DNA of 32,373 nucleotides from Hymenobacteraceae bacterium (GTDB taxonomy: Bacteria; Bacteroidota; Bacteroidia; Cytophagales; Flexibacteraceae), in contig CANHCT010000016.1 in NCBI GenBank assembly GCA_947459175.1, positions 1-32,373 on the forward strand, read 5' to 3'. Within the stretch, counting starts at the first letter, position 1. Each line of letters opens with the position of its first letter. A model generated the notes under the pieces. That model searched no databases. It saw only the letters and a list, made by a program, of their open reading frames with translations, and was not told where the DNA came from. Below, one piece after another: positions 625-29,363 of the stretch. A program made the translations under genes and the position numbers.

Positions 625-3600
625 TCAGACTTCAACACCGGCCAGTTCTTTGTTTTCAATGGGCTGAGATTTTTTGGAAACAGAGCTTAATCCTGCAAAA
701 GCATAATAAAGACCGGGAACCAGAATGACCCCGAATAAAGTACCAAAGAGCATACCGCCTGCTGCAGAAGAGCCGATGGTCCGGTTTCCGATTTCACCGG
801 CGCCCGATGCCAGCATGAGAGGAATCAATCCTGCAATAAATGCGAATGAAGTCATGAGAATAGGTCTGAGCCGTGCACCTGCCCCGATGAGGGCTGCCTG
901 GAATACACTGAAACCTTCCTTTTGCTTCAATATGGCAAACTCCACTATGAGGATGGCATTTTTTCCGAGTAAACCAATGAGCATCACCATAGCCACCTGC
1001 GCATAAATATTGTTTTCCAGTCCGAAGAGGTACAGAAAAAACAGAGATCCGAAAATTCCGCATGGCAGTGAAATCAGCACCGGAAGGGGCAAAATGAAAC
1101 TTTCGTATTGGGCAGCAAGCAAGAGGTAAACAAAAAGCAGGCAGATGCAAAAAATGAAGACAATCTGATTGCCCGATTCGATTTCCTCTTTGGTGATACC
1201 CGAAAATTCATGCGAAAAACCTTTGGGCAAATGCCTTGCTGCTACTTCTTCAATGGCCTGTATGGCCTGGCCCGAACTGTATCCTTTTGCCGCTTCGCCG
1301 TTGAGCATAGAAGAGGTGTACATGTTGTAGCGGGTAAGTTGCTCAGGTCCGTAAACCCGCTCTATGGTGCTGAAAATGGAATAGGGAACCATCTCACCGT
1401 CCCGGTTTTTGATTCTGAGTTTCAGCACATCTTCCGGATGGGCGCGGTATTTGGGGTCCGATTGTACCATCACTTTATACATCTGCCCGAAGCGGATAAA
1501 ATTGGTGGCATAGGTAGAGCCCATCAGGATTTGCAGGTTGCTCAGGGCATCTTCTATCGAAATACCTTTTTTAGCTGCCACAGCCTGATCCACCCGAATG
1601 AGGTACTGAGGAAAGTTGGGATTGAAGCTGGTAAACACACTTTTGATTTCGGGCCTTTTCCGAAGTTCCTTCATAAAGTTTTGCGTTACCTCATCGGTCT
1701 TTCTCAGATTTCCCGAGCCGGTCTTGTCCAGAATGCGCATTTCAAATCCGCTTGCATTACCAAAGCCGGGCACGGGAGGAGGGGGGAAGAACTGAATATC
1801 CGCATCCTGAATGTGGGAGGTTTTTTCTTCCAATACGGCAATGATGTCCCGTGCTGATTCTTTCCTGTCGTTCCATGATTTCAGGTTGATGGTGCTCATA
1901 CCGAAAGAAGCCCCCGAGCCATCGGTCATCATGCTGAATCCGGCCAGACTGGATACGGTTTCCACAGATTTCAGTTCCAGGGCGGCACGGTCTATTTCGT
2001 TCATTACTTCTTCGGTCCTTTCCAGGGTTGCACCGTTTGGGGTGGTCACATTGGCATAAATGGTGCCCTGGTCTTCCGTTGGGATAAATCCCGTAGGGAG
2101 AATGCGTGCCATGCCCCAGACCGAGATTGAAAAAACAATCAATATTCCGAAAGTGACCATCCTTCTGGAGATAAACAATTCCAAAAGTCGCTTGTAACGG
2201 AATGAAAGTCGGTCGTAAGCCCGGTTGAATCCGTCAAAGAAGCGATCCAATACATTTTTCTTTTTATTGGAGGAATGGGGTTTCAGCAACAAGGCGCATA
2301 AAGCCGGGGTAAGCGTAAGGGCATTGATGCCCGAAATGACAATGGAAATGGCCATGGTCACCGAAAATTGCCGGTAAAAAACTCCGACAGGTCCGGAGAG
2401 AAATGCCACAGGAATAAATACGGCCGACATGACCAGTGTAATGGCCACAATGGGACCGGAAATTTCCCTCATGGCCATGAAAGCTGCGGTTCTGGCATCA
2501 CAATGATGCTCTTCCATCTTGGCATGAACAGCTTCAACCACCACTATGGCATCATCGATGACCACTCCGATGGCCAGCACCAATGCGAAAAGGGTTAGCA
2601 GGTTGATGGAAAAGCCGAAAAGTTCCATAAAGGCAAAAGTTCCTATCAAGGCGACAGGAACGGCCAGAACGGGAATGAGCGTGGAGCGCCAGTCCTGAAG
2701 GAAAAGAAAAACCACCAAAGCAACCAGAATGAATGCCTCAATCAGGGTCTTTTTTACCTCAAATACAGATGCATCCAGAAAGCGGGATACATCGTAGGAA
2801 ATGGTGTAGCTCATACCCGGAGGAAAAGATTTCTCCTTCAGCAGGGCCAGCCGGGATTTCACATTGGCAATCACCTCACGGGCATTGGAGCCGGGCCTTT
2901 GTTTCATGATGATGGCAGCCGATGGTTTGCCGTTCTCCTTCGATAAAACATCATAATCCAATGATCCAAATTCAATTTCGGCAATGTCTTTCAGTCGGAG
3001 TAAATCCCCGTTGGGTGAAACCTTGACTACCAGGTTTTCATATTGTTCCTTTTGTGTAAATTTCCCGGTGTATTTCAATACATATTGAAGCGATTGGGCC
3101 TTTCTGCCTGAGCTTTCCCCTATTTTTCCGGGTGCTGCCTCAACATTTTGCTGTCTCAGGGCTGTCACAACATCCTGTGCCGAAAGTTCATATGCATCCA
3201 AAACCTGGGGTTTCAGCCATACCCGCATGGAATATTCCCGTTGTCCCATGATGTCGGCAAATCCCACTCCGTCAATTCTTTTCAGTTCGGCTAAAACATT
3301 GATATCGGCAAAGTTGTAAATGAATTTTTCATCCAGACTGGTGTCTTCGCTCACCAGATTGAGGTACATGAGCATGCTGTTTACCTCTTTCTCGGTTTGA
3401 ACTCCGGCCTTCAGAACTTCCTGCGGCAATTCATCCAAAATGGTAGAAACCCGGTTTTGAACATTCACTGCAGCCAGATCCGGATTGGTTCCTACTTTGA
3501 AATAAACCGTGATGATGCTGGTTCCGTCATTTCCGGATACTGAGGTCATGTACGACATGCCGGGTACTCCGTTTATGGCCCTTTCCAAAGGCGTAACCAC

Positions 3601-3780
3601 GGCTTTGGAGCAGACCTCGGCATTGGCTCCCACATATTTGGTGGTAACCGAAACAGCGGGCGGCGCAATATCCGGATATTGGGTTACAGGTAAACCCGTA
3701 AGGGCCAGAAGTCCTAACAGGACAATGAATACCGATATTACAAGAGATAAAACAGGCCTTCGGATGAATAAACCTACCAT
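625..3780 (-). CDS. RND family hydrophobic/amphiphilic efflux pump inner-membrane subunit (AcrB/HAE1-type)
   Basis: A complete 1051-aa protein, the normal length for HAE1 pumps, with an ATG start. Visible hallmarks: N-terminal FIRRPVLSLVISVFIVLLG (first membrane helix), a large periplasmic loop, the proton-relay pair Asp409-Asp410 in the fourth-helix motif GVVIDDAIVVVE, and the matching Lys in LLGKNAILIVEFA near the tenth helix. The Gly/Pro-rich porter segment FFPPPPVPGFG is also typical. It would be an inner-membrane trimer that uses the proton gradient to expel drugs, detergents or lipophilic metabolites through the adaptor and channel encoded beside it. It lies 8 bases after the adaptor's stop codon and 13 bases before the channel gene. 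No TetR/AraR-type regulator is adjacent. Substrate range cannot be inferred. Confidence 0.95.
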   Translation of the reverse strand: MVGLFIRRPVLSLVISVFIVLLGLLALTGLPVTQYPDIAPPAVSVTTKYVGANAEVCSKAVVTPLERAINGVPGMSYMTSVSGNDGTSIITVYFKVGTNPDLAAVNVQNRVSTILDELPQEVLKAGVQTEKEVNSMLMYLNLVSEDTSLDEKFIYNFADINVLAELKRIDGVGFADIMGQREYSMRVWLKPQVLDAYELSAQDVVTALRQQNVEAAPGKIGESSGRKAQSLQYVLKYTGKFTQKEQYENLVVKVSPNGDLLRLKDIAEIEFGSLDYDVLSKENGKPSAAIIMKQRPGSNAREVIANVKSRLALLKEKSFPPGMSYTISYDVSRFLDASVFEVKKTLIEAFILVALVVFLFLQDWRSTLIPVLAVPVALIGTFAFMELFGFSINLLTLFALVLAIGVVIDDAIVVVEAVHAKMEEHHCDARTAAFMAMREISGPIVAITLVMSAVFIPVAFLSGPVGVFYRQFSVTMAISIVISGINALTLTPALCALLLKPHSSNKKKNVLDRFFDGFNRAYDRLSFRYKRLLELFISRRMVTFGILIVFSISVWGMARILPTGFIPTEDQGTIYANVTTPNGATLERTEEVMNEIDRAALELKSVETVSSLAGFSMMTDGSGASFGMSTINLKSWNDRKESARDIIAVLEEKTSHIQDADIQFFPPPPVPGFGNASGFEMRILDKTGSGNLRKTDEVTQNFMKELRKRPEIKSVFTSFNPNFPQYLIRVDQAVAAKKGISIEDALSNLQILMGSTYATNFIRFGQMYKVMVQSDPKYRAHPEDVLKLRIKNRDGEMVPYSIFSTIERVYGPEQLTRYNMYTSSMLNGEAAKGYSSGQAIQAIEEVAARHLPKGFSHEFSGITKEEIESGNQIVFIFCICLLFVYLLLAAQYESFILPLPVLISLPCGIFGSLFFLYLFGLENNIYAQVAMVMLIGLLGKNAILIVEFAILKQKEGFSVFQAALIGAGARLRPILMTSFAFIAGLIPLMLASGAGEIGNRTIGSSAAGGMLFGTLFGVILVPGLYYAFAGLSSVSKKSQPIENKELAGVEV

Positions 3781-3788
3781 GGTGATGT

Positions 3789-4928
3789 TTATTTGGATGC
3801 CAGTTCTTTTAAAATTTCTTTCATCGCAATGAACCTCGGGTTGATAACCGAGCCATCACCCACATTCTGAATCCCTTCGTACACAATCATGTCCTTGTCT
3901 TTCAGGCCTTTGCTGATGATGAAAAGATGAGAAAGGCGGTGGCTTGCTGTTACATTACGGATTTCGAGTTTGTTGTCCTTATTCACCACATACACATACA
4001 GTTTGTCCTGAATTTCAAAGGTGGCTTTTTGGGGAATGGCCAGAACATTGATGAGTCTTTTGGTCATCCTTACCTTGCCGCTGGCGCCATGCTTCAGGAT
4101 TTTATCCGGATTGGGAAACCGGGCACGAAATGCAATGTTGCCTGTTGATCCGTCAATTTCTCCTTCAATGGTTTCAATTCTGCCCGATTGCTCATGCATT
4201 TTGCCGTCGGCCAATATGAGGTCAACTTTTTTAGAGCCGGTGGAATCCTTCAGTGAGTTTTCGGCATAAGCGAGGTATTCTTTTTCCGAAACATCGAAAT
4301 AGGCAAATACATGATTGTTCTCCGAAATCGAGGTGAGCAGGCTTCCTTCATCGATCAGCGATCCGATTTTAAATGGAATCCGGTTGATGAATCCATTGAA
4401 AGGGGCCCGGATTTGGGTGTAGGATAATTTATGTTCAGCCGCTTCTTCATTGGCCAACGCTTCCTCTACTTTGGCATTGGCCGAGGCGAATTTATTTTTG
4501 GCAATTTCCAGTTCAGTAGAGGAAACCACATTTTTCCAAAACAGCTGGGTTACATTGGTGAGTTCAATTTCGGCAGAACGCGCCTCTGATGCAGCAATCC
4601 GGTAAATCGCTTTGGTCCGGTTGAGTTCTTCCCGGTAGCCGGCTTCATTGATTTTAAAAAGCAATTGGCCTTCCCGGACATATTGCCCTTCGTCTGCAAA
4701 AATTTTTTCGAGATACCCCGAAACCTGGGCCCGGATTTCCACATTCTGAACCGCAGCAATTTCGGCAACATAGTCGGTGTGGAGGTTGGTATCAATCGAA
4801 ATTACCCTGGTTACCGGTATGGTCTCCGGCGCAGGCGGGGTTTCAGGACCGCCGGTGCAGGCCAGCAGTAAAAAACAAACTGCAGAACAGTAAAGCGATG
4901 GTTGAAAAAGTTTAATCAATGGTATCAC
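3789..4928 (-). CDS. RND efflux periplasmic adaptor (membrane fusion protein, AcrA/MexA-like lipoprotein)
   Basis: A 379-aa adaptor. The signal peptide ends in FLLLAC, so Cys24 should be lipidated and the protein tethered to the inner membrane. Order of domains: beta-barrel/lipoyl N-half with VEIRAQVSGYLEKIFADEGQ (about residues 62-82), a coiled-coil hairpin rich in Glu/Ala/Lys (about 105-165), the second lipoyl half with YTQIRAPFNGFINRI, a beta-barrel, and a membrane-proximal domain. The start used is GTG (4926-4928). An in-frame TAA lies immediately before it, so translation cannot begin further upstream; a TTG three codons later is an alternative. It is the first gene of the operon and the adaptor that joins pump and channel. 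Family certain, start fairly certain. Confidence 0.93.
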   Translation of the reverse strand: MIPLIKLFQPSLYCSAVCFLLLACTGGPETPPAPETIPVTRVISIDTNLHTDYVAEIAAVQNVEIRAQVSGYLEKIFADEGQYVREGQLLFKINEAGYREELNRTKAIYRIAASEARSAEIELTNVTQLFWKNVVSSTELEIAKNKFASANAKVEEALANEEAAEHKLSYTQIRAPFNGFINRIPFKIGSLIDEGSLLTSISENNHVFAYFDVSEKEYLAYAENSLKDSTGSKKVDLILADGKMHEQSGRIETIEGEIDGSTGNIAFRARFPNPDKILKHGASGKVRMTKRLINVLAIPQKATFEIQDKLYVYVVNKDNKLEIRNVTASHRLSHLFIISKGLKDKDMIVYEGIQNVGDGSVINPRFIAMKEILKELASK

Positions 4929-5254: not shown

Positions 5255-6220
5255 ATGGATATCTGGACCTTTATTTCCGAAAAAATTCATTCCGGAGCGC
5301 GTATTTTTCTTTTGTATGTGCTCGAAAGTCAGGGCAGTTCGCCCGGCAGGCGGGGATTTAAAATGGCAGTGGCCTCGGATGGCAGTTTTACAGGCACCAT
5401 CGGCGGCGGCATTATGGAATTTAAAATGGTAGAAAAGGCAAAGGCCTTGCTTTCCAACGGGCAGTTTGAATTGGAGGCCACCTATCAGTACCACGACAAA
5501 GCCCATGGCACCGACCAATCGGGGATGATTTGTTCCGGCAGCCAATTTCTGGTTTTTGTGCCGCTTTCTGCGGCTGAACTTCCTTTTGTCCAGTCTGTTA
5601 TGGCGGCCCTTCGTGAAGAAAAACCTGTATCCCTCCGGGTTTCGCCCGAAGGGATCTCTTTGGCAGAGTACCTTGCCGACGAATGGGAAATCCGGTCGGA
5701 GAAAGACTGGATTTCTGTGGAAAGCTTAAAAAAGCAACCCGTGATCCACATCATCGGCGGGGGGCATGTGAGCCTGGCCCTGAGCGAACTGATGCGCTAT
5801 CTGGGCTTTTATATTTTTGTTTACGATGACAGACCCGGACTTTCTACACTGAAAGAAAACCATTTTGCAGACGAAAAATTTGAAGTAGATTACAATAGGG
5901 CAGGGGATTGGCTTAAGGCAAAATCTTCTGATTTTGTGGTGATTATGACCGTAGGATACAGAACCGACAAGCTCATTCTGCGGCAATTGCTGGGCAAAAA
6001 TTTTTTCTACCTGGGCATGCTGGGGAGTGAAAATAAAATTGAAACCCTGATGGCCGAACTGAAAGCTGAAGGTTTTGAGGAAGAAGACTTGGCGGGGATT
6101 CATGCGCCCATAGGCTTGATGATATACAGCCAAACCACACGGGAGATTGCCGTGAGCATTGCAGCCGAAATCATAATGGAAAAAAATAAGAATCTGCCCG
6201 GTGGAAGGGGCCAAAAATAA
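5255..6220 (+). CDS. XdhC/CoxI family molybdoenzyme maturation protein
   Basis: A 321-aa protein with the two-domain layout of the XdhC/CoxI family. The N-terminal XdhC_CoxI domain (about residues 10-110) has ESQGSSPGRRG, the TIGGG turn and a Cys-containing MICSG motif. The C-terminal XdhC_C Rossmann domain (about 165-310) begins with VIHIIGGGHVSLAL and ends with the family signature HAPIGLMIYSQTTREIAVSI. In characterised relatives this protein binds molybdenum cofactor, promotes its sulfuration and delivers it to xanthine dehydrogenase-type hydroxylases. No molybdoenzyme subunit gene lies in this window. Its stop codon (6218-6220) directly abuts the ATG of the next gene, so it should be the first gene of a three-gene operon. 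Family assignment is firm; the client enzyme is unknown. Confidence 0.9.
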   Translation: MDIWTFISEKIHSGARIFLLYVLESQGSSPGRRGFKMAVASDGSFTGTIGGGIMEFKMVEKAKALLSNGQFELEATYQYHDKAHGTDQSGMICSGSQFLVFVPLSAAELPFVQSVMAALREEKPVSLRVSPEGISLAEYLADEWEIRSEKDWISVESLKKQPVIHIIGGGHVSLALSELMRYLGFYIFVYDDRPGLSTLKENHFADEKFEVDYNRAGDWLKAKSSDFVVIMTVGYRTDKLILRQLLGKNFFYLGMLGSENKIETLMAELKAEGFEEEDLAGIHAPIGLMIYSQTTREIAVSIAAEIIMEKNKNLPGGRGQK

Positions 6221-7240
6221 ATGATGATACAAACCAATAAAGAGTTGGCGATCACCCGGATAACGGCACTTTGGGCGCTCAGCGAATCCGGAATGGGAGG
6301 GGTGCTCCATGCCCTGCGGGTGCCTTTTACCGGGATTTTTGCCGGGGGTTTTGCCCTCATTATGCTTTGCCTTCTTGCCCATTTTTCAGACCGCAATCCT
6401 GCCAAAATGCTTTCGGCCCTTTTGGTGGTGTTGCTGATTAAAGCCGGTGTAAGTCCCCATTCTCCTTTTCCTGCTTATTTTGCAGTTTCCTTTCAGGCTT
6501 TTGTTTCTATACTGATTTACAGGTTTTTGGGGATTCATTTTTTCTCCGTTTTCCTTGCCTGCCTCATTGCGCTGCTGGAGTCTGCCTTTCAGAAATTGAT
6601 TTTTCTTACCCTGTTTTTTGGTGAAAATATCTGGGTGGCCACCGACAAAATGATGGCCCATGCAGGCAAGCAAGTGGGTATGACGGTAGAAAACGGGTCT
6701 TTACTCGCCATGGGCATATACACGGGCATTTATTTTTTTGCTGCCATTCCTGTGAGCGTTCTCACCATCCGGCTTTTCCGAAAAATATCATCGGGCGAAA
6801 GTGCGCCTCCTTTGCCTGAATTCGACCCGCAGCCGGCTTCTTTTTTGGCAAGCGGCACCCGAAAAAGCAATCGCCAAGTCTTTATTTGGCTGTTTATTTT
6901 AACGGCGCTTTCTCTTGCGTTGTATGTGTTCAGGTCAGATCAAAAGTCATTCATCATGGACCTGACGAAAACCTTGGTTTGGTCCTTTTCGGCCCTGCTG
7001 ATTTGGTTTGTTTTACTCAATCCCTTTCTTGTTTTTCTCATAAAGCGATTCCTCAGCAGCAAAAGGCAAGGCCTTCAATCTCAGATCAATGAAGCGTTGG
7101 GCATTTTTCCGGCTTTTTCACGCATCAATGCTCTGGCATGGCAGCATTCTGCAGGAAAGCGGGGCTTTTTTCGCCTTCCGGAGTATCTTTTTCTGCTGCT
7201 TGTCTGGTGTTTAACTTATCCTTCAGAAAATCAGTCGTGA
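6221..7240 (+). CDS. Polytopic membrane protein of unknown function, coupled to XdhC and a P-loop NTPase
   Basis: A 339-aa integral membrane protein that I do not recognise. Hydrophobic segments are visible at about residues 36-54, 62-76, 84-104, 107-133, 160-184, 220-236, 251-275 and 321-333, with possibly one more at 12-30. A hydrophilic Pro/Ser-rich loop (about 188-218) divides it into two halves. The N-terminal half, with short helices, Gly-rich turns (GVLHALRVPFTGIFAGGFAL) and many small residues, looks loosely like an ECF-transporter substrate-binding component. The second half has an NPFLVFLIKRFLSSKR segment that could be cytoplasmic-facing. Both resemblances are impressions, not established homology. 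It starts immediately after xdhC and overlaps the NTPase gene by 4 bases, which implies coordinated translation of all three. A transport or sensing role linked to molybdoenzyme maturation is inference only. Confidence 0.75.
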   Translation: MMIQTNKELAITRITALWALSESGMGGVLHALRVPFTGIFAGGFALIMLCLLAHFSDRNPAKMLSALLVVLLIKAGVSPHSPFPAYFAVSFQAFVSILIYRFLGIHFFSVFLACLIALLESAFQKLIFLTLFFGENIWVATDKMMAHAGKQVGMTVENGSLLAMGIYTGIYFFAAIPVSVLTIRLFRKISSGESAPPLPEFDPQPASFLASGTRKSNRQVFIWLFILTALSLALYVFRSDQKSFIMDLTKTLVWSFSALLIWFVLLNPFLVFLIKRFLSSKRQGLQSQINEALGIFPAFSRINALAWQHSAGKRGFFRLPEYLFLLLVWCLTYPSENQS

Positions 7241-7704
7241 GCATATTAATTTTGTCGGGACCAGTACATTCAGGTAAAACCACGGGCTTGCAAAACTGGA
7301 TGCGAAAGCAGGGCAATGTGCACGGGCTGCTGATGCCGGAAGGAGAGGAGGGCCGCTTTTTTGAGTTTTTTCCGGATGGCATCCGTTTTCCTGCTTTTTT
7401 TCAGGAAGGAAAAGAACAAGAAAAAATGGAAATCGGCCGGTTTGTATTCTCTGAAAATGCCTTTGCCAAGGCCAATGATTTTCTGCTCCGTAAAGCCGGG
7501 GAAAAGCCGGACCTGATGGTGGCAGACGAACTTGGAAAACTGGAAATGGAAAATAAAGGATTGGCACCCGGAATTCAGGCTTTGATTGCCGCTTATAAGA
7601 TAGGTCCCGGCAGCCTTATTCTGGTCATCCGCGAGTCGCTCCTGGAACCGGCAATTGAGAAATTCGGCCTGCAAGGCTCTATCCGGATCAGTGGCTTTTT
7701 TTGA
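7237..7704 (+). CDS. THEP1-like P-loop nucleoside-triphosphatase
   Basis: A 155-aa protein starting at GTG 7237, where GTGA overlaps the previous gene's stop; upstream in-frame codons exist but would overlap that gene by about 100 bases and add a sequence without family character. Walker A is GPVHSGKT at residues 8-15, right at the N-terminus. Walker B is LMVADE (93-98), followed by LGKLEMENKG, which matches the DEiGkME pattern of the THEP1 NTPase family. There is no ABC signature, so it is not an ABC ATPase. THEP1 proteins hydrolyse nucleoside triphosphates slowly, and their physiological role is poorly defined. Related NTPases are also found beside molybdenum genes (DUF2478 group), so either assignment is possible. 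The overlap with the membrane protein gene suggests a shared task. Confidence 0.75.
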   Translation: MSILILSGPVHSGKTTGLQNWMRKQGNVHGLLMPEGEEGRFFEFFPDGIRFPAFFQEGKEQEKMEIGRFVFSENAFAKANDFLLRKAGEKPDLMVADELGKLEMENKGLAPGIQALIAAYKIGPGSLILVIRESLLEPAIEKFGLQGSIRISGFF

Positions 7705-9039: not shown

Positions 9040-10305
9040 TCAGGCATACTTTTCCAGGAAGGTGATGATTTCGCTGTGCAGCCTGTCCATGTCTGACTCC
9101 GAAGCGCAGTAGGGGGGAACCAGGTACATTACATTCCCTATGGGCCTCACCAATAAATCTTTATCTAAGAAATACTGATAAATAAGAGCCCGATTCGGAT
9201 GGGTGTAATTCAGGCCGTCCTCGGGGGAGAGGGTCAGAGCAAAGATGGTACCCAATTGCCTGGGGTTGAGATGGGGAAAAGATGCTTCCACTTTTTGGCA
9301 AAAGGCCTTCTGCAGCCCGCAAAGCCTGTTGATTCGGAGGGTGGTTTCGGGTTTTTGCAAAAGCCCGAGGCTGGCCAATGAGGCTGCGCAGGCCAGAGGA
9401 TTGGCCGTGAAAGAGTGCCCGTGATAGAGGGTGTGCCCGTAATCTGCCTGATAGAAAGGCTTGGAAATTTCTTCCCGGCAGGCGGTAATGCCCAATGGCA
9501 AAAATCCTCCTGTCAAACCTTTTGAGAGGCAAATCAGGTCCGGCAAAACCGACAATCGGGAAGAAGCGAAGGGGGTACCGGTTCTGTAAAATCCGGTAAA
9601 CACCTCATCTGCAATGATTTTGGTGCCGTATTTCCTTGCCGTGGCAAACAATTCATCCAGCCAGCCGGCATCGTACATGAGCATTCCCCCTGCTCCCTGC
9701 ACCAGTGGCTCCGCAATAATGGCAGCCACCGTTCCGGTTTCCAGCAGGCGAATTGCCTTTTCCAAGCCTTCTTCGCTGCCTTTCGGGTTTGTATACCTTG
9801 GCAAAATAAACTCAACATCAAAAAGCCAATCCTGAAATGCTGCAGAAAATGGCCCCCGGGCTCCCACAGCCATCGCACCGAAAGTGTCACCATGATAAGA
9901 ATTCTCAAGGGCCAGAATTTTGCTGCGCTTTTCTCCGCACAGGTGAAAAAATTGCAGTGCCATTTTGATGGCCACCTCAACGGCGGTGCTGCCATTGTCG
10001 GTATAAAAAACCCGGCTGAATCCGGGAGGCAGAAATTTCAGTACTCCGGCAGCCAGTTCTTCGGCAGGTTCGTGGGTGAATCCTGCAAACACCACTTGTT
10101 CCAATTTTTCGGCCTGCCGGGCAATGGCCTGCGCGATGACAGGGTGCCCGTGGCCATGCAGGTTTACCCACCAGGAAGAAATGCCGTCGAAAATTCGCCT
10201 TCCTTCTTTTGTGATGAGATATGCCCCCTCTCCGCGGTCAATCAGGATTTCTTTCCCGCCGATACCGGGAGTGTAGGGATGCCAAACCTTTGAATCAGAG
10301 GCCAT
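9040..10305 (-). CDS. bioA: Adenosylmethionine--8-amino-7-oxononanoate aminotransferase
   Basis: A 421-aa class III aminotransferase of normal BioA length. It catalyses transfer of an amino group from S-adenosylmethionine to 8-amino-7-oxononanoate, giving 7,8-diaminopelargonate in biotin synthesis. Visible marks: the BioA N-terminal pattern VWHPYTPG, GISSWWVNLHGHGHP near residues 41-54 (substrate/SAM region), YTDNGSTAVE (101-110), the PLP-stacking Tyr in YHGD (137-140), DEVFTG with Asp233, and the PLP-binding Lys262 in SKGLTGG. These separate it from other class III enzymes such as ornithine or GABA aminotransferases. The gene overlaps the 3' end of bioD by 11 bases and follows it on the same strand, so the two are translated together. 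The next biotin steps (bioB, bioF) are not in the window. Confidence 0.95.
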   Translation of the reverse strand: MASDSKVWHPYTPGIGGKEILIDRGEGAYLITKEGRRIFDGISSWWVNLHGHGHPVIAQAIARQAEKLEQVVFAGFTHEPAEELAAGVLKFLPPGFSRVFYTDNGSTAVEVAIKMALQFFHLCGEKRSKILALENSYHGDTFGAMAVGARGPFSAAFQDWLFDVEFILPRYTNPKGSEEGLEKAIRLLETGTVAAIIAEPLVQGAGGMLMYDAGWLDELFATARKYGTKIIADEVFTGFYRTGTPFASSRLSVLPDLICLSKGLTGGFLPLGITACREEISKPFYQADYGHTLYHGHSFTANPLACAASLASLGLLQKPETTLRINRLCGLQKAFCQKVEASFPHLNPRQLGTIFALTLSPEDGLNYTHPNRALIYQYFLDKDLLVRPIGNVMYLVPPYCASESDMDRLHSEIITFLEKYA

Positions 10306-10912
10306 TCAGGTTGACTTTGTTGGAAATTTCTTCGATAGCAGTACGGTTCACCTCATCCAGCTTAGGAATTCTGAGGATACAAGGAGCAGGGCAGCGGTTC
10401 TGAATCACACTTTCGGCATTCTGGAAATCCAGGCCGTTGAACACCAGCCCTGCAACAGGAATTTTTCTCCGCTCCAATTCCGCTATTGTCAGCAGAGAAT
10501 GATTGAGTGCCCCAAGATAATGATTGATTACCAGCACAACCGGAAGGTCAAGCCGGGTTATCAAATCGGCCAGAACTTCATTCCCGTTCAGGGGGACCAT
10601 AAGGCCACCCGCGCCTTCCACCACGAGCGGACCCTGAACATCCGGAACGGAAAAGTCCTCCGGACTGATTGTAATGCCCTCATTTTCTGCTGCAAAGTGA
10701 GGTGAAGCCGGGGTTTTAAGGCAATACCTTTCCGGAATAATCACCGCTTCCGGCAACATAGAGGTCATCCAGCTGCTGTCGGTCGGACTTCCGCATTGTA
10801 CGGGTTTCCAATAAGCTGCCCGCAGGTGGTTTACAAGAACAGCAGAAGTAAGGGTTTTGCCGGAGTCGGTACCTATGGCGGTAACAAAAATGCGGTCAGG
10901 AAAGGAATTCAA
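10295..10912 (-). CDS. bioD: Dethiobiotin synthetase (start uncertain, non-ATG)
   Basis: The product ligates CO2 to 7,8-diaminopelargonate with ATP to form dethiobiotin. Marks: a P-loop near the N-terminus (GTDSGKT), YWKPVQCGSPTD (BioD substrate-binding KPVQ motif), VVEGAGGLMVPL (the EGAGG loop characteristic of BioD), and VVLVINHYLGALNHSLLT. No ATG exists in a suitable place. The reading frame extends up to a TTG at 10955-10957, with TGA just upstream, but BioD proteins usually begin only 3-6 residues before the FVT strand. The TTG at 10910-10912 gives a protein of 205 aa that fits this best. Calling the longer form adds 15 residues (RRLTEFAPKFFALV and so on) that do not look like family sequence. 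It overlaps bioA, which lies downstream in the same operon. Function is clear, the start is not. Confidence 0.88.
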   Translation of the reverse strand: MNSFPDRIFVTAIGTDSGKTLTSAVLVNHLRAAYWKPVQCGSPTDSSWMTSMLPEAVIIPERYCLKTPASPHFAAENEGITISPEDFSVPDVQGPLVVEGAGGLMVPLNGNEVLADLITRLDLPVVLVINHYLGALNHSLLTIAELERRKIPVAGLVFNGLDFQNAESVIQNRCPAPCILRIPKLDEVNRTAIEEISNKVNLNGL

Positions 10913-10939
10913 AACTAAAGCAAAAAATTTCGGCGCAAA
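10910..10939 (-). promoter_or_regulatory. Candidate promoter for bioDA
   Basis: On the reverse strand, TTTG at 10939-10936, an 18-base spacer and TAGTTTTG at 10917-10910 form a good match to the TTTG/TAnnTTTG pair. The -7 box overlaps the preferred TTG start of bioD. If the promoter is real, either the transcript starts at about the start codon or translation begins still further downstream. Confidence 0.35.
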
Positions 10940-10956
10940 TTCAGTCAATCGCCGCA

Positions 10957-11100
10957 ATGAAAAAAATATTCATTTCAATGTTGGCCACTCATTTAATGCT
11001 GTTATTTCATTTCGGTTACAGCCAGGGGCCAAAAGGTCCGATCGGAAGAAAAAGACCTTCACTAACCAATGAAAATGATCAGTGGGGCTTATTCCCATAA
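10957..11100 (+). CDS. Small secreted peptide candidate (47 aa)
   Basis: The frame begins with an ATG at 10957 and ends in TAA at 11098-11100. The N-terminus is a textbook signal peptide: MKKIF, a hydrophobic core with LATHLMLLFHFG, and a likely cleavage after YS (about residue 22). The remaining 25 or so residues are polar and Gly/Pro-rich: GPKGPIGRKRP, then SLTNENDQWGLFP at the C-terminus. I recognise no family. It runs divergently from bioD; its ATG lies 44 bases from the preferred bioD start. The signal peptide is the main support, because 47 codons could be open by chance. A 3' truncation of a longer secreted protein is an alternative, since the following DNA shows scattered open stretches. 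Confidence 0.45.
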   Translation: MKKIFISMLATHLMLLFHFGYSQGPKGPIGRKRPSLTNENDQWGLFP

Positions 11101-13549: not shown

Positions 13550-15772
13550 TCAGGAGTCGAAGCGGTCTACCCGCACAACACCTTCTACCTTCTCCAGTTT
13601 GGAAATAAGGTGTTCCAGGTGTTGGGTGTCATGCACAAAAAGCATGATTTTTCCTTCAAATATGGTTTCATTGGTGTCGATTGAAATGGATCGCATATTC
13701 ACCCGTAAATCATTGGATATCACCCTCGTAACATCCTGTACCAATCCCAGTCGGTCGGTGCCGGTAATGCGCAGTCCGGCCAGAAAGGCCAATTCTTTCT
13801 GAGATGTCCATTTTGCTTTTATGATGCGGTAACCATAGTTGCTCATCAGTTCCACCGCATTGGGACATGAGGTGCGATGAATTTTTATACCCTCATTGAC
13901 GGTAACAAAACCAAAGACATCATCGCCGGGTATCGGATTACAGCACTTGGCGAGTGTATAATCTATTTTATCCATGTTCTCTCCAATCAGCAATTGATCG
14001 GAGTCTACGCCCCTGACTTTTTTGATTTCCTTTTCAAAGGATTTAGCATCATGTATTACCAAGGGTCCGGCCAGTTCCCGCCGCTTTTTCTCCTCCCGAT
14101 ACTTTTTTATTTGTGAAGGGTCGATTCCACCCCGGCCAACCAGATAAAAAAAGTCCAGGTTGGTTCTGCAATCAAAATAAGCCCGCAATCCGGACATGAT
14201 TTCCTCCGTCATTTCAAGTTTCAATTGCTTCAGCTTTCGCTCCACAATCTCCTTTCCGTCAATGGCTACCAGTTTTTTCTGTTCTCTGAGGCTGTCTTTG
14301 ATTTTTGAAACAGCTTTGCTGGTAACCACTATTTTCAACCAATCCTCATTGGGTTTTTGCTTTGCACTGGTGAGGATTTCAATTTGGTCACCATTGCGTA
14401 ATTTATGTGAGATGGGTACCAACTTGTTGTTCACCTTTGCCCCGATGCAGTTGGCGCCAATTTTGGAATGGATGTCGAAAGCAAAGTCGAGGGCAGTGGC
14501 CCCGGAAGGAAAAATCCGCAGATCACCCTTCGGAGTAAAAACATAGACCTCCTCGGCAAAAAGGTTGTTCCTGAAATCATTGACAAACTCAATAGCTGAA
14601 CCATCCTGATTTTCAAGCATCTCCCTCACTTTTGCCAACCAGGATTCGATGCCGGTTTCCCGGTTGAAGGATTGGTCTTTGTGCGAGTCTTTGTATTTCC
14701 AATGTGCAGCCACGCCTTTTTCGGCAATCTGGTCCATTCGCTCGGTACGGATCTGCACTTCTACCCATTGACCTGTTCGGCTCATCACTGTGACATGCAG
14801 AGATTCATAGCCATTGCTTTTCGGGGTACTCACCCAGTCCCGAAGCCGGTCGGGGTTGGGTTTGTAGAAATCGGTTACAATTGAATATACTTTCCAGCAG
14901 GCCGCTTTTTCTTCCTCAAAGGGAGTATCGAGAATAATCCGTATAGCAAACAAATCGTAGATTTCCTCAAAGGCGATTTTTTGTTTTTTTATTTTGTTCC
15001 AAATGGAATAGATGCTTTTGGGTCTTCCTTTGATGGTGTAGTTGAAGCCGGTTTGGTTCAAGGCCTCATCGATGGGTTCCAAAAACTCGCGGATAAACTT
15101 GTTTCGGCTGGCTTTGGTTTGCTTGATTTTGTTGGCAATATCCCGGAAAACATCTGGCTCAGTATATTTAAGATATAAGTCTTCGAGCTCGGTTTTAATG
15201 GCATAAAGCCCCAATCGGTGTGCAAGTGGAGCATAGAGATAAATAGTTTCAGAACTGATTTTTAATTGGGAGTTACGGGGCATACTGTCCAGGGTCCGCA
15301 TGTTGTGCAGTCTGTCAGCAATTTTTATGAGGATTACCCGGATGTCTTCTGAAAGTGTCAGCAGCATTTTACGGAAGTTTTCCGCCTGCTGGGAACTGCC
15401 TTGCTGAAAAACACCTGAAATTTTGGTCAGGCCATCAATGATCCGGGCCACTTTTACACCGAATAATTTCTCAATGTCCTTTACCTCCATGTCAGTATCT
15501 TCTACCACATCATGCAGAAGAGCAGCAATCACAGCTGTGGGACCAAGTCCAATTTCATCTACACAAATCTGGGCTACAGCTATGGGATGATAAATATAAG
15601 GTTCGCCCGATTTTCGGCGCATTTCCTTGTGGGCTTCTACCGCTGTATTAAAGGCCAGCCTGATTTGTTTCGAGTCGTCCCCTTTCATCATGGGCCTGAC
15701 CGAACGCATCAGTTTCCTGTACATGTTTACAATTTGCCGGTTCTCTTTTTCAGCGTCGATTACGGTTTTCAT
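13550..15772 (-). CDS. Bifunctional (p)ppGpp synthetase/hydrolase (RelA/SpoT homologue)
   Basis: A 740-aa Rsh protein, standard length. Domain order: HD hydrolase domain with YHPIAVAQ and ALLHDVVEDT (His87-Asp88, Glu91-Asp92) and ADRLHNMRTL (about 152-161); synthetase domain with YDLFAIRIIL (about 272), STPKSNGYESLHVTV (about 315-329) and EVQIRTERMDQIAEKGVAAHW; TGS domain from about 408 (VYVFTPKGDLRIFPSGATALDF); a zinc-finger/helical region with the CCNPIPGDD motif; and a C-terminal ACT domain with ITGTDRLGLVQDVTRVI. The intact HD site and synthetase motifs support both making and degrading the alarmone, as expected for a phylum that usually has one long Rsh. It has an ATG start and converges with the desaturase gene. 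Confidence 0.95.
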   Translation of the reverse strand: MKTVIDAEKENRQIVNMYRKLMRSVRPMMKGDDSKQIRLAFNTAVEAHKEMRRKSGEPYIYHPIAVAQICVDEIGLGPTAVIAALLHDVVEDTDMEVKDIEKLFGVKVARIIDGLTKISGVFQQGSSQQAENFRKMLLTLSEDIRVILIKIADRLHNMRTLDSMPRNSQLKISSETIYLYAPLAHRLGLYAIKTELEDLYLKYTEPDVFRDIANKIKQTKASRNKFIREFLEPIDEALNQTGFNYTIKGRPKSIYSIWNKIKKQKIAFEEIYDLFAIRIILDTPFEEEKAACWKVYSIVTDFYKPNPDRLRDWVSTPKSNGYESLHVTVMSRTGQWVEVQIRTERMDQIAEKGVAAHWKYKDSHKDQSFNRETGIESWLAKVREMLENQDGSAIEFVNDFRNNLFAEEVYVFTPKGDLRIFPSGATALDFAFDIHSKIGANCIGAKVNNKLVPISHKLRNGDQIEILTSAKQKPNEDWLKIVVTSKAVSKIKDSLREQKKLVAIDGKEIVERKLKQLKLEMTEEIMSGLRAYFDCRTNLDFFYLVGRGGIDPSQIKKYREEKKRRELAGPLVIHDAKSFEKEIKKVRGVDSDQLLIGENMDKIDYTLAKCCNPIPGDDVFGFVTVNEGIKIHRTSCPNAVELMSNYGYRIIKAKWTSQKELAFLAGLRITGTDRLGLVQDVTRVISNDLRVNMRSISIDTNETIFEGKIMLFVHDTQHLEHLISKLEKVEGVVRVDRFDS

Positions 15773-19325: not shown

Positions 19326-22300
19326 ATGAGAAACAAGTCGTTGTTAATTACACTCACAGTGGTGGTTTCGGCCCTGTGTGCTTACTATCTTTCTTTTACC
19401 TTTATTTCCAGAGGTGTGGAGAAGGATGCAGAAGAATTTGCTACCGTAAACGGGGTTGTAAATCAGCAGAAAAAAGCCGCCTACCTCGATTCGATGTGGG
19501 TAAATCCTTCCATTAATATTTTGGGAAAAGACTTCACCTACAAAGAGGTGAAAGAAAATGAGGTGAAACTCGGCCTTGACCTGATGGGAGGTATGCATGT
19601 GACCATGGAAGTCGATGCAGGTGATATTATAAAAGTTCTCTCCGGAAACAATCCGGGCAAGGCCCTTTCCGATGCGATTGCCGAAGCCCGGGAAGCCCAG
19701 AAGACCAGTCAGTCACCTTTTCTTGATTTGTTCGTGAAGGCATTTCAGGAAAAAAATCCGGGAGTTAAACTGGCCTCCATTTTCAGCAATAAAAACAATG
19801 CCCAACGGATTGATTTTTCTTCTGAAGATGCCAAGGTAAAAGCATACCTCGCCGAAGAAATTCAGTCAACCATAGATAGATCATTTGAAATCCTGAGGAC
19901 CAGGATTGATAAGTTCGGGGTTACTCAGCCAAATATTCAGCAATTGAAGGGAACCAACCGCATTCAGATTGAATTGCCGGGAATTTCGGATGCCCAGCGG
20001 GCGAGAAAAATCCTTCAGAGCGTGGCCAAACTCGAGTTTTTTGAGGTTTGGGAGCAAAATGAGTTTATCCCTTATTTCAATCAGCTGAATGACCTTTTGG
20101 TAAAAGAAGAAAATGCTGCCAAAGGATTAAAAACAGCTGCTCCGAAAGATGTTTTCAGCAGTTCATCCGATTCCAGCAAGACCACAGCAGATTCCACCGC
20201 TTCAGCAGCCGATTCTTCCGCCGGTGACACTTCAGCTCAGGCACTTGCCAAAAAAATGGAAAGCAAACAGGATTCGGGCAAGGCAAAGGCTGATACCTCC
20301 CAATCCAAAACCAGCGCTCTGCTTACTTCCCTGTTCAAGCCGGTATATGGCGGTTTGGGAGCAGCCATAAAGGATACGAACAAAGTGAACAGGGTGTTGA
20401 ATCGTCCTGATGTTCAGGCATTGTTTCCATCCAACATGAAATGTCTTTGGGGCGTGAAACCCGAAAGTACCGGGCAGGCAGGTCAAAAGGAAGAAGAAGG
20501 TGTTTTGCCGCTTTATTTTGTTAAAAAAGGAAGGGACAATCAGGCACCACTGGAAGGCTCCGTGATTACCGATGCCCGTCAGGATTTTGATGAACGCGGC
20601 CAACCCGAAGTAATGATGTCGATGAATTCCGACGGGGCCAGAATCTGGAAACGACTTACAGCTGCCAACATCGGCAAGAGAATTGCCATTGCCCTTGATA
20701 ATTATGTGTATTCCGCACCCAATGTAAGGGGCGAGATTCCCAACGGAAACAGTTCAATTTCTGGTAGTTTCACTGTAGATGAGGCAAAAGATCTTGCCAA
20801 CATTCTGAAAGCTGGTAAACTTCCTGTACCCACCCGCATTGTTGAAGAAGAAGTTGTAGGACCAACTCTCGGAAAAGAATCCATCAATCAGGGTTTGCTT
20901 TCTATCATTGCCGGCTTCCTTACCATCATTTTATTTATGATTGCCTACTACAACAGCTCCGGGGTTGTGGCTGATATAGCGGTACTATTGAATGTGTTTT
21001 TTGTAGTCGGAATTCTGGTTCCGGTTCAGGCAGTGCTTACCCTTCCGGGAATTGCCGGTATCGTACTTACTGTGGGTATGGCTGTGGATGCCAACGTACT
21101 GATCAACGAGCGAATCCGGGATGAAATACGACTAGGGATACCACTCAAGGAGGCAGTGAAAAAAGGATATGAAGCCGCTTCTACCTCCATTTGGGATGCC
21201 AACATTACTACCGTATTGGCTGGTTTTGTACTCTTTTACTTCGGTTCCGGCCCGGTTCAGGGATTCGCTACTACGCTGATTATCGGTATTTTCACCTCGC
21301 TTTTTACTTCGGTTTATTTTACCCGCATTCTGGTAGAATCGCGTTTGAATAAAGGAGGTTCTTTCTCATTCTCTACCGGAATTTCCAAAGACCTGTTCAA
21401 AAATGTGAATTACGATTTCGTTTCCAAAAGGAAGATTGCCTATGTTTTCTCTTCTGTGGTTATCGGAGCGGGTTTGGTTTACATTGCCATGACCGGCCTG
21501 AATTATGGTGTGGATTTTAAAGGCGGCTGGAAATATGTTGTGAAGTTTGAAAACGCTGTTGCAACCGATGATGTTCGGGCTGCTTTGGAAAAACCATTAG
21601 GCGGATTTCCTGAAGTGAAGTCTTTTGGTTCTTCTGATAAAGTGCAGATTACCACATCTTATATGATTGATGACTTGTCAGACGATGCAGCCTCCAAGGT
21701 TTTGGACAAGGTGGAGGAAGGTCTCAACGGGTTTCAAACGGGAGGAAAGCACGAAATTCTTTCTACTGCTAAAGTTGGACCAACCGTAGCAAATGACATA
21801 AAAGTGAATTCTACTGTGGCTGTAGTTATTGCCCTTGTCCTGATTTTCGTATACATCATCATCCGTTTCCGCAAGCTGGGTTATGCCATGGGCGCCACTT
21901 TGGCTCTTTTCCATGATGCGCTGATGGTATTGGTGTTTTACACGGTTTGCCGTCACTTTTTGCCATTCTCGCTTGAAGTGGATCAAAACTTCATAGCAGC
22001 CATTCTTACAATTGTGGGATATTCTGTAAACGATACCGTTGTTATCTTCGACAGGGTTCGGGAGTTCTTTAAAGATTCTGCCCTTGAGGCGGATCCGAAG
22101 GCGGTAATCAATAAAGCGCTGAATGACACCTTCTCCAGAACCGTGGTTACCGCATCTACTGTATTGCTGGTGGTGTTGATTCTGCTGTTCTTTGGTGGTG
22201 AAACCATCAGGGGCTTAAGTTTCGCCCTACTGATTGGTGTAATTACCGGAACTTATTCCACCATTTACATCGCACTTCCTTTTGTATTGGATGCTCCGGG

Positions 22301-22334
22301 CATTAAGGAAAAGAAAGAGGAAGCAGCTTCATAA
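19326..22334 (+). CDS. secDF: Protein translocase subunit SecDF (fused SecD and SecF)
   Basis: A 1002-aa fusion typical of the phylum. It uses the proton-motive force to pull proteins from the SecYEG channel on the periplasmic side. SecD half: N-terminal helix, LGLDLMGGMHVTMEV (about 82-96), the P1 domain, and VGMAVDANVLINERIRDE with its functional Asp. SecF half: YGVDFKGGW and VGYSVNDTVVIFDRVREF, plus the final helices. Both halves therefore carry six membrane segments. An unusual Ser/Ala/Asp/Lys-rich low-complexity insert occupies about residues 276-331 of the periplasmic domain. ATG start at 19326 follows a T-rich leader. A strong terminator follows the gene. Confidence 0.96.
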   Translation: MRNKSLLITLTVVVSALCAYYLSFTFISRGVEKDAEEFATVNGVVNQQKKAAYLDSMWVNPSINILGKDFTYKEVKENEVKLGLDLMGGMHVTMEVDAGDIIKVLSGNNPGKALSDAIAEAREAQKTSQSPFLDLFVKAFQEKNPGVKLASIFSNKNNAQRIDFSSEDAKVKAYLAEEIQSTIDRSFEILRTRIDKFGVTQPNIQQLKGTNRIQIELPGISDAQRARKILQSVAKLEFFEVWEQNEFIPYFNQLNDLLVKEENAAKGLKTAAPKDVFSSSSDSSKTTADSTASAADSSAGDTSAQALAKKMESKQDSGKAKADTSQSKTSALLTSLFKPVYGGLGAAIKDTNKVNRVLNRPDVQALFPSNMKCLWGVKPESTGQAGQKEEEGVLPLYFVKKGRDNQAPLEGSVITDARQDFDERGQPEVMMSMNSDGARIWKRLTAANIGKRIAIALDNYVYSAPNVRGEIPNGNSSISGSFTVDEAKDLANILKAGKLPVPTRIVEEEVVGPTLGKESINQGLLSIIAGFLTIILFMIAYYNSSGVVADIAVLLNVFFVVGILVPVQAVLTLPGIAGIVLTVGMAVDANVLINERIRDEIRLGIPLKEAVKKGYEAASTSIWDANITTVLAGFVLFYFGSGPVQGFATTLIIGIFTSLFTSVYFTRILVESRLNKGGSFSFSTGISKDLFKNVNYDFVSKRKIAYVFSSVVIGAGLVYIAMTGLNYGVDFKGGWKYVVKFENAVATDDVRAALEKPLGGFPEVKSFGSSDKVQITTSYMIDDLSDDAASKVLDKVEEGLNGFQTGGKHEILSTAKVGPTVANDIKVNSTVAVVIALVLIFVYIIIRFRKLGYAMGATLALFHDALMVLVFYTVCRHFLPFSLEVDQNFIAAILTIVGYSVNDTVVIFDRVREFFKDSALEADPKAVINKALNDTFSRTVVTASTVLLVVLILLFFGGETIRGLSFALLIGVITGTYSTIYIALPFVLDAPGIKEKKEEAAS

Positions 22335-27383: not shown

Positions 27384-29363
<1,980 letters not shown>

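Follow-up and report, generated by a model that had tools for sequence, protein, structure and literature searches.

Cells that need the molybdenum cofactor (Moco) are generally held to make it themselves, and uptake of exogenous Moco had, when PMC9793310 was published, been observed only in C. elegans. A 2018 survey listed 305 bacteria with molybdoenzymes and without a complete Moco pathway, and asked for tests of whether such proteins use molybdenum at all (PMC6147048). The literature that we searched, with subscription papers and preprints outside its scope, contained no bacterial Moco importer. Several described systems share a part with the locus studied here, a cassette of genes for XdhC, an unnamed membrane protein (MP) and a P-loop NTPase. 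The S components of ECF transporters (RibU, HmpT/4huq_S, 5edl, CbiM) are like residues 1-195 of MP in predicted fold, and their role in vitamin or cofactor binding may be likened to that of MP, however, MP matches none of the known S families in sequence and carries a fused C-half. A complete ECF transporter has the T component EcfT/CbiQ (PF02361), absent from 39 of 40 genomes including that of our cassette, and an ABC-type ATPase pair, whereas the ATPase adjoining MP is of the THEP1/NTPase_1 type. THEP1/NTPCR proteins (PF03266, COG1618), ASCE-class NTPases that are neither kinases nor GTPases, resemble this NTPase in profile, fold and the DExGxxE Walker B motif; it differs in being linked with both a membrane protein and MobA, the function of the family being otherwise unknown (PMC1079890). 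The MobA-MobB guanylyltransferase/adaptor pair offers another likeness, a P-loop protein fused to or adjoining MobA, but our NTPase belongs to THEP1 and not to PF03205, and is kept also where MobA is absent. The oxyanion importers ModABC, WtpABC and TupABC likewise supply molybdenum to molybdoenzymes; they import molybdate or tungstate and need MoaA-MoeA downstream, whereas the MP cassette is without ABC parts. Our working analogy is cobalamin uptake (BtuB-TonB with an inner-membrane importer), in which a large finished cofactor is salvaged through a TonB receptor and a dedicated importer, although both the inner-membrane proteins and the cofactor are other than in the Moco system proposed here.

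The window, that is, the whole stretch of 32,373 nucleotides analysed, is a complete contig (C16) of a 3.0-Mb Hymenobacteraceae assembly of 243 contigs, about 96% complete (Table 1). The ORF check agreed with the sequence-only reading that the three genes are packed without gaps, and both junctions it described are seen: the xdhC stop codon TAA (6218-6220) abuts the MP ATG at 6221, and the MP stop TGA (7238-7240) and the NTPase GTG start (7237-7239) overlap as GTGA (7237-7240). An alternative in-frame ATG for the NTPase is found at 7138; the homologues begin where the GTG stands. An aminotransferase near the cassette, considered as a neighbour common with the Flaviaesturariibacter locus L102, was rejected as it is BioA beside BioD.

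Table 1. Features of the cassette and ordinary neighbours in the window.
Feature	Position	Strand	Basis
XdhC-like Moco-binding xanthine dehydrogenase maturation factor	5255..6220	+	PF02625 4.2e-14, PF13478 2.4e-34
MP, unnamed two-part membrane protein, 339 aa, candidate Moco-binding permease	6221..7240	+	
MP N-half, residues 1-195, predicted ECF S-component-like helical domain	6221..6805	+	
MP C-half, residues 196-339, a pair of hydrophobic helices followed by long ones; putative coupling part	6806..7237	+	
THEP1/NTPase_1-family P-loop NTPase, 155 aa, GTG start	7237..7704	+	PF03266 2.6e-8
NTPase Walker A motif GPVHSGKT	7258..7281	+	sequence
NTPase Walker B / THEP1 motif DELGKLE, with ASCE-type catalytic glutamate	7525..7545	+	sequence
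RND pump with membrane-fusion protein, ordinary neighbour	628-4928		
BioA-BioD, ordinary neighbour	9043-10957		
RelA/SpoT, ordinary neighbour	13553-15772		
SecDF, ordinary neighbour	19326-22331		
GyrB, ordinary neighbour	27387-29330		

The second product had been called an unrecognised membrane protein, and this holds: neither profile searches nor Foldseek placed it in a known, unrelated family. MP matched no family in Pfam or NCBIfam, its 64 relatives had none in common there (scattered weak single matches, the best being Trep_Strep at 7e-5 in one relative), and the MP profile found no match among PDB sequences; in these searches MP has no sequence membership in a known S family. With the AF2 model (mean pLDDT 88), plain Foldseek gave nothing below E 0.001 and a fold search of a viral library gave no match. 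In a VIA-align comparison of the model, the seven top structural matches, all to residues 1-195, were ECF S components or CbiM (Z 11.9-8.0: 5edl 11.9, TmRibU 11.6, 4huq_S 10.7, 3p5n 10.1, CbiM 8.0), and the best unrelated chain scored 7.5; helical bundles below Z 13 call for care with this method, the best value for MP being 11.9. The N-half is thus predicted, from the model, to have the fold of an ECF S component, in agreement with the solute-binding look that had been noted for it. The residues best conserved in the family fall in this half (W18, E22, GG26-27, H30, P35, K74, SPH78-80, Y86, Q92, QK124-125, W138 and Y167 over 64 sequences), with charged or polar ones lying within helices, e.g., E22, K74, Q92 and Q124. 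The C-half is modelled as helices 219-237, 244-280, 282-312 and 315-332 with hydrophobic peaks at 225-235 and 252-268, and its long helices are probably cytoplasmic. The whole-model structural search gave only helix-pair matches for residues 212-281, and no established match to EcfT for the C-half.

The third gene passes the Pfam cut-off for NTPase_1/THEP1 (34.4 versus 23.9 bits, 2.6e-8). Among 30 relatives the G and K of Walker A and the D, E, G, L and E of the DELGKLE motif are 100% conserved. The structural model was built on a natural MP-NTPase fusion, a single 518-aa ORF at locus L138 (pTM 0.71), whose NTPase part resembles A. aeolicus THEP1 (1ye8) with Z 15.2 and rmsd 3.0 over 152 residues. 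Profile and fold therefore both bear out the description of this product as a P-loop NTPase that is not an ABC ATPase. A metabolite-kinase role by analogy with CobU/NadR was set aside, since THEP1 is ASCE-class and not a kinase (PMC1079890).

About 100 MP relatives were found in all. The order-level search gave MP in eight of 241 genomes and the class-level search 17 real members among 395 genomes (matches in G028, G363 and G512, weak and within 584-1172-aa frames, were rejected), while a scan of named-species genomes with a profile built from five MPs gave 103 relatives, of which 80 were kept. Most belong to Bacteroidota; others come from Verrucomicrobia, Kiritimatiellae, Ignavibacteriae and Caldithrix. 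Our own selection from these searches, with known duplicates left out, comprised 90 loci, six of which end at MP, leaving 84 in which the adjoining gene could be tested. The NTPase lies directly downstream of MP in 67 of these 84, which, together with the L138 fusion, means that the arrangement is not due to chance. It does not adjoin MP in the other 17, among them the TonB operons of Verrucomicrobia and loci of Pontibacter; at L018 and L111 a six-frame search did find an NTPase, one of them distant and the other truncated where the contig stops. The XdhC-MP-NTPase order of the window recurs in Flaviaesturariibacter (L102), and the orders XdhC-MocA-MP-NTPase (L100) and XdhA-XdhB-XdhC-MOSC-MP (L128) are also seen. 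XdhC, MobA-FdhD-FdhF, SorA and MOSC occur as alternatives beside the pair. What is conserved is MP together with the NTPase, and XdhC is an optional partner; of the three-gene unit proposed from the sequence alone, the MP-NTPase adjacency has been kept, while XdhC is swapped for other genes.

A Moco gene occurs at most six genes from MP in 57 of the 90 loci (XdhC, XdhAB, MOSC, sulfite dehydrogenase, MobA, MocA, FdhD or an FdhF-like oxidoreductase), and the contexts span the xanthine oxidase, sulfite oxidase and DMSO reductase families, plus MOSC. Loci of the DMSO-reductase type are arranged MP-NTPase-MobA-FdhD-DUF7009-FdhF/YdeP-type oxidoreductase; MobA is found in 32 of these 34 formate-dehydrogenase-type loci, and the NTPase is fused to MobA in 25 loci. 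By comparison, a MobA-like gene is present in two of ten xanthine-oxidase-type loci, both best-scoring as MocA (cytidylyltransferase), and one of them, L104, adjoins a two-subunit hydroxylase. Sulfite dehydrogenases, which are Mo-MPT enzymes, stand beside MP or the NTPase in L089, L094 and L127, and MOSC proteins occur in nine MP loci. The type of nucleotidyltransferase fits the local enzyme type across the MP loci. From this fit and established cofactor chemistry we infer that the molecule common to all MP contexts is nucleotide-free Mo-MPT.

Other neighbours were recorded as well. DUF7009 (PF22668, approximately 122 aa) is conserved between FdhD and the FdhF/YdeP-type oxidoreductase, e.g., at L054:10095-10469, in about 22 loci, and is likely a partner of that oxidoreductase. 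In Caldithrix (L129:6073-9011) the order is MobA-MobB-DUF4213/DUF364-MP, with a true MobB where the THEP1 NTPase sits elsewhere. IscS-IscU-IscA-like genes are found directly 5' of MP-NTPase in nine loci, all from related marine Bacteroidia (L098, L099, L101, L103, L106, L108, L109, L118 and L124). This neighbourhood may reflect shared ancestry, and IscS could supply sulfur for cofactor sulfuration.

The first gene of the cassette is above the Pfam cut-offs for XdhC_CoxI (4.2e-14) and XdhC_C (2.4e-34), and below the NCBI equivalog cut-off for xanthine dehydrogenase XdhC (TIGR02964; 111.3 versus 161.6 bits). It is the single XdhC_CoxI match of its genome, from which FdhD is absent. The sequence-only reading placed no molybdoenzyme near the cassette, which is right for the 32-kb contig; it does not hold for the genome, where a search for MoCoBD_1 gave one protein, a 798-aa xanthine dehydrogenase-like XdhB on contig C199. 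The lack of the enzyme near the cassette reflects the contig boundaries, and in a congeneric genome MP-NTPase adjoins xdhA-xdhB in divergent orientation; the description of the cassette as lacking a molybdoenzyme has to be limited to the contig. An alignment of XdhB with human xanthine oxidoreductase spans about 740 residues (E 1e-167), and XdhB retains GGGFGGKE, AFRGFGGPQG and KAVGEPPL, which we take to be the cofactor-side and catalytic segments in XDH; with the catalytic GEPP motif intact, the molybdoenzymes of carrier genomes look functional. Three other genomes of the same genus (G002-G004) were found without MP, MoaA and MoeA.

The carriers of MP mostly cannot make Moco. In our survey of synthesis genes, which covered MoaA, MoaC and MoeA (plus ModB), MoaA was not found in 33 of 37 MP genomes and MoeA not in 35 of 37. 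MoaC is present in 180 of the 395 class-sample genomes, but in two of the 17 with MP (G043 and G609) and in none of the 14 with adjacent MP-NTPase; G043 and G609 have MoaA, MoaC and MoeA, and their NTPase is not beside MP. Apart from these two, most MP genomes, including that of the window, use molybdenum enzymes without de novo synthesis. Draft genomes of Ignavibacteriae and Caldithrix with MP contain MoaA. The genomes with MP and without MoaA and MoeA include Cochleicola, two Taibaiella, Cryomorpha, Winogradskyella pelagia, two Pontibacter, Chryseotalea and UKL13-3; as this set contains isolates and one complete chromosome (UKL13-3), the absences cannot be put down to unfinished assemblies. 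Among genomes with FdhD, MP is found in 13 of 16 that lack MoaC versus one of 112 that have it (Fisher p 3.6e-14, a value inflated by kinship). The swap is reciprocal within single groups. In family f32, eight genomes are MP-positive and MoaC-negative and six the reverse, with no exception (p 3e-4); within genus g186, G362 and G421 stand against G578, and within g233, G473 and G596 against G612; the pattern repeats once each in f48, f59 and f23. Three class-sample genomes (G273, G570 and G577) have FdhD and neither MoaC nor MP, being either incomplete assemblies or users of another salvage route. The molybdate permease ModB is missing from 16 of 17 MP genomes, including that of the window.

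A compact Verrucomicrobia operon (L110:2680-8503) contains, in this order, genes for a TonB-dependent receptor, MP, ExbB, and ExbD-like and TonB-like proteins, with no NTPase; the receptor and ExbB are confirmed by Pfam, and ExbD and TonB were assigned by eye. A TonB receptor also precedes MP in L119, L123 and L135, and of these four loci only L123 has the NTPase. The Verrucomicrobia operons suggest that the cofactor's passage through the outer membrane is TonB-dependent. A short ModE-like DNA-binding protein accompanies MP at L117:7475-7816 (TIGR00637, 4e-21, below cut-off), and a relative of it precedes the TonB receptor at L135:4639-5076; both are possible regulators responding to molybdenum or Moco.

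Taken together, we lean towards the view that MP and the NTPase are a salvage importer of ready-made Moco (Mo-molybdopterin). Transport, its direction, its substrate and its coupling are what we infer from the observed adjacency, fusions, contexts and gene absences and from the predicted folds. Since MoaA, MoaC and MoeA are missing, import of the cofactor rather than uptake of molybdate is expected, and since MoeA is missing the imported cofactor should already carry molybdenum, its most likely form being Mo-MPT. As EcfT/CbiQ is absent from 36 of 37 MP genomes, a canonical ECF module cannot serve MP. Seated at the inner membrane, the pair would take up ready-made Mo-MPT; the S-component-like N-half of MP would bind it, and the C-half with the THEP1-type NTPase would probably power its release into the cytoplasm or act as a gate for it. 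There it would be handed directly to the processing enzyme encoded nearby. In the window's genome XdhC would be expected to sulfurate it and then load xanthine dehydrogenase, and elsewhere the recipient would be MobA (for FdhF/YdeP-type enzymes), MocA, a sulfite dehydrogenase or a MOSC protein. The earlier idea of a Moco-linked transport or maturation module is well supported; what it missed is that most carriers have lost Moco synthesis, a sign that they salvage the finished cofactor. The role of the NTPase as motor, gate or handover protein is the least certain part: a motor is roughly an even call, cofactor handover falls somewhat short of that, and since 17 of the 84 loci have no NTPase next to MP, MP may not strictly need it as a motor. 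Against salvage count the synthesis genes of G043 and G609, MoaA in the Ignavibacteriae and Caldithrix drafts, and the three genomes with FdhD and without MoaC and MP; moreover, Moco is oxygen-labile, and a protected extracellular source must therefore exist.

The best-surviving alternative, which we consider rather unlikely, is that MP takes up Moco alone, facilitated or trapped by downstream binding, and that the NTPase is a soluble loading factor comparable to MobB which hands Mo-MPT to MobA or XdhC. It would suit the NTPase-MobA fusions, the MP genes without adjoining NTPase in Verrucomicrobia and Pontibacter, and the Caldithrix locus where a true MobB accompanies MobA and MP, but the NTPase is translationally coupled to MP and once fused to it, THEP1 is an ASCE-class NTPase outside the MobB family (PMC1079890), and XDH-type loci keep the NTPase without MobA. 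An unrecognised, non-homologous route of Moco synthesis or molybdenum insertion at the membrane, of which MP and the NTPase are a part, would give an identical auxotrophy pattern, and new biosynthetic components have been suggested (PMC6147048); we find it improbable, as two genes, one with a permease fold and one for a THEP1 NTPase, would scarcely substitute for the chemistry of MoaA, MoaC and MoeA, and the operons with TonB/ExbBD speak for uptake. Import of molybdate or tungstate is very improbable: the near absence of ModB from MP genomes and the ModE-like regulator at two loci would fit it, however, without MoaA, MoaC and MoeA most of these genomes could not turn molybdate into Moco, and a small oxyanion would not be expected to need a TonB receptor. 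Finally, it is hard to credit that the enzymes are Mo-independent (forms raised in PMC6147048) or decayed and that MP-NTPase carries something else, such as an XDH substrate, for which the purine-catabolism genes near MP in L091, L093 and L113 might speak, since the formate-dehydrogenase-type, sulfite dehydrogenase and MOSC neighbours have only the cofactor in common, the XDH catalytic motifs are intact, and XdhC, FdhD and MobA are retained.

Weighed by fold alone, the MP system would be a variant of S-component-type importers. Import of Moco would be new, as the literature searched holds no Moco importer and an S-like permease here has a THEP1 NTPase as its partner in genomes that lack EcfT. 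Tentatively, it could be both the first bacterial importer of intact Moco and a new class of transporter, one that uses a THEP1-type NTPase, instead of EcfT and the ABC ATPases, to drive an S-component-like permease. For the question of molybdenum use without a Moco pathway, the cassette supplies named genes, a mechanism and culturable carriers, among them Taibaiella chishuiensis, Winogradskyella pelagia and Chryseotalea sanaruensis. If salvage import is true, it would suggest a possible function for a member of the THEP1 family, it would account for some of the several hundred bacteria with orphan molybdoenzymes that lack Moco synthesis, and Moco would be a shared, vitamin-like good in microbial communities.
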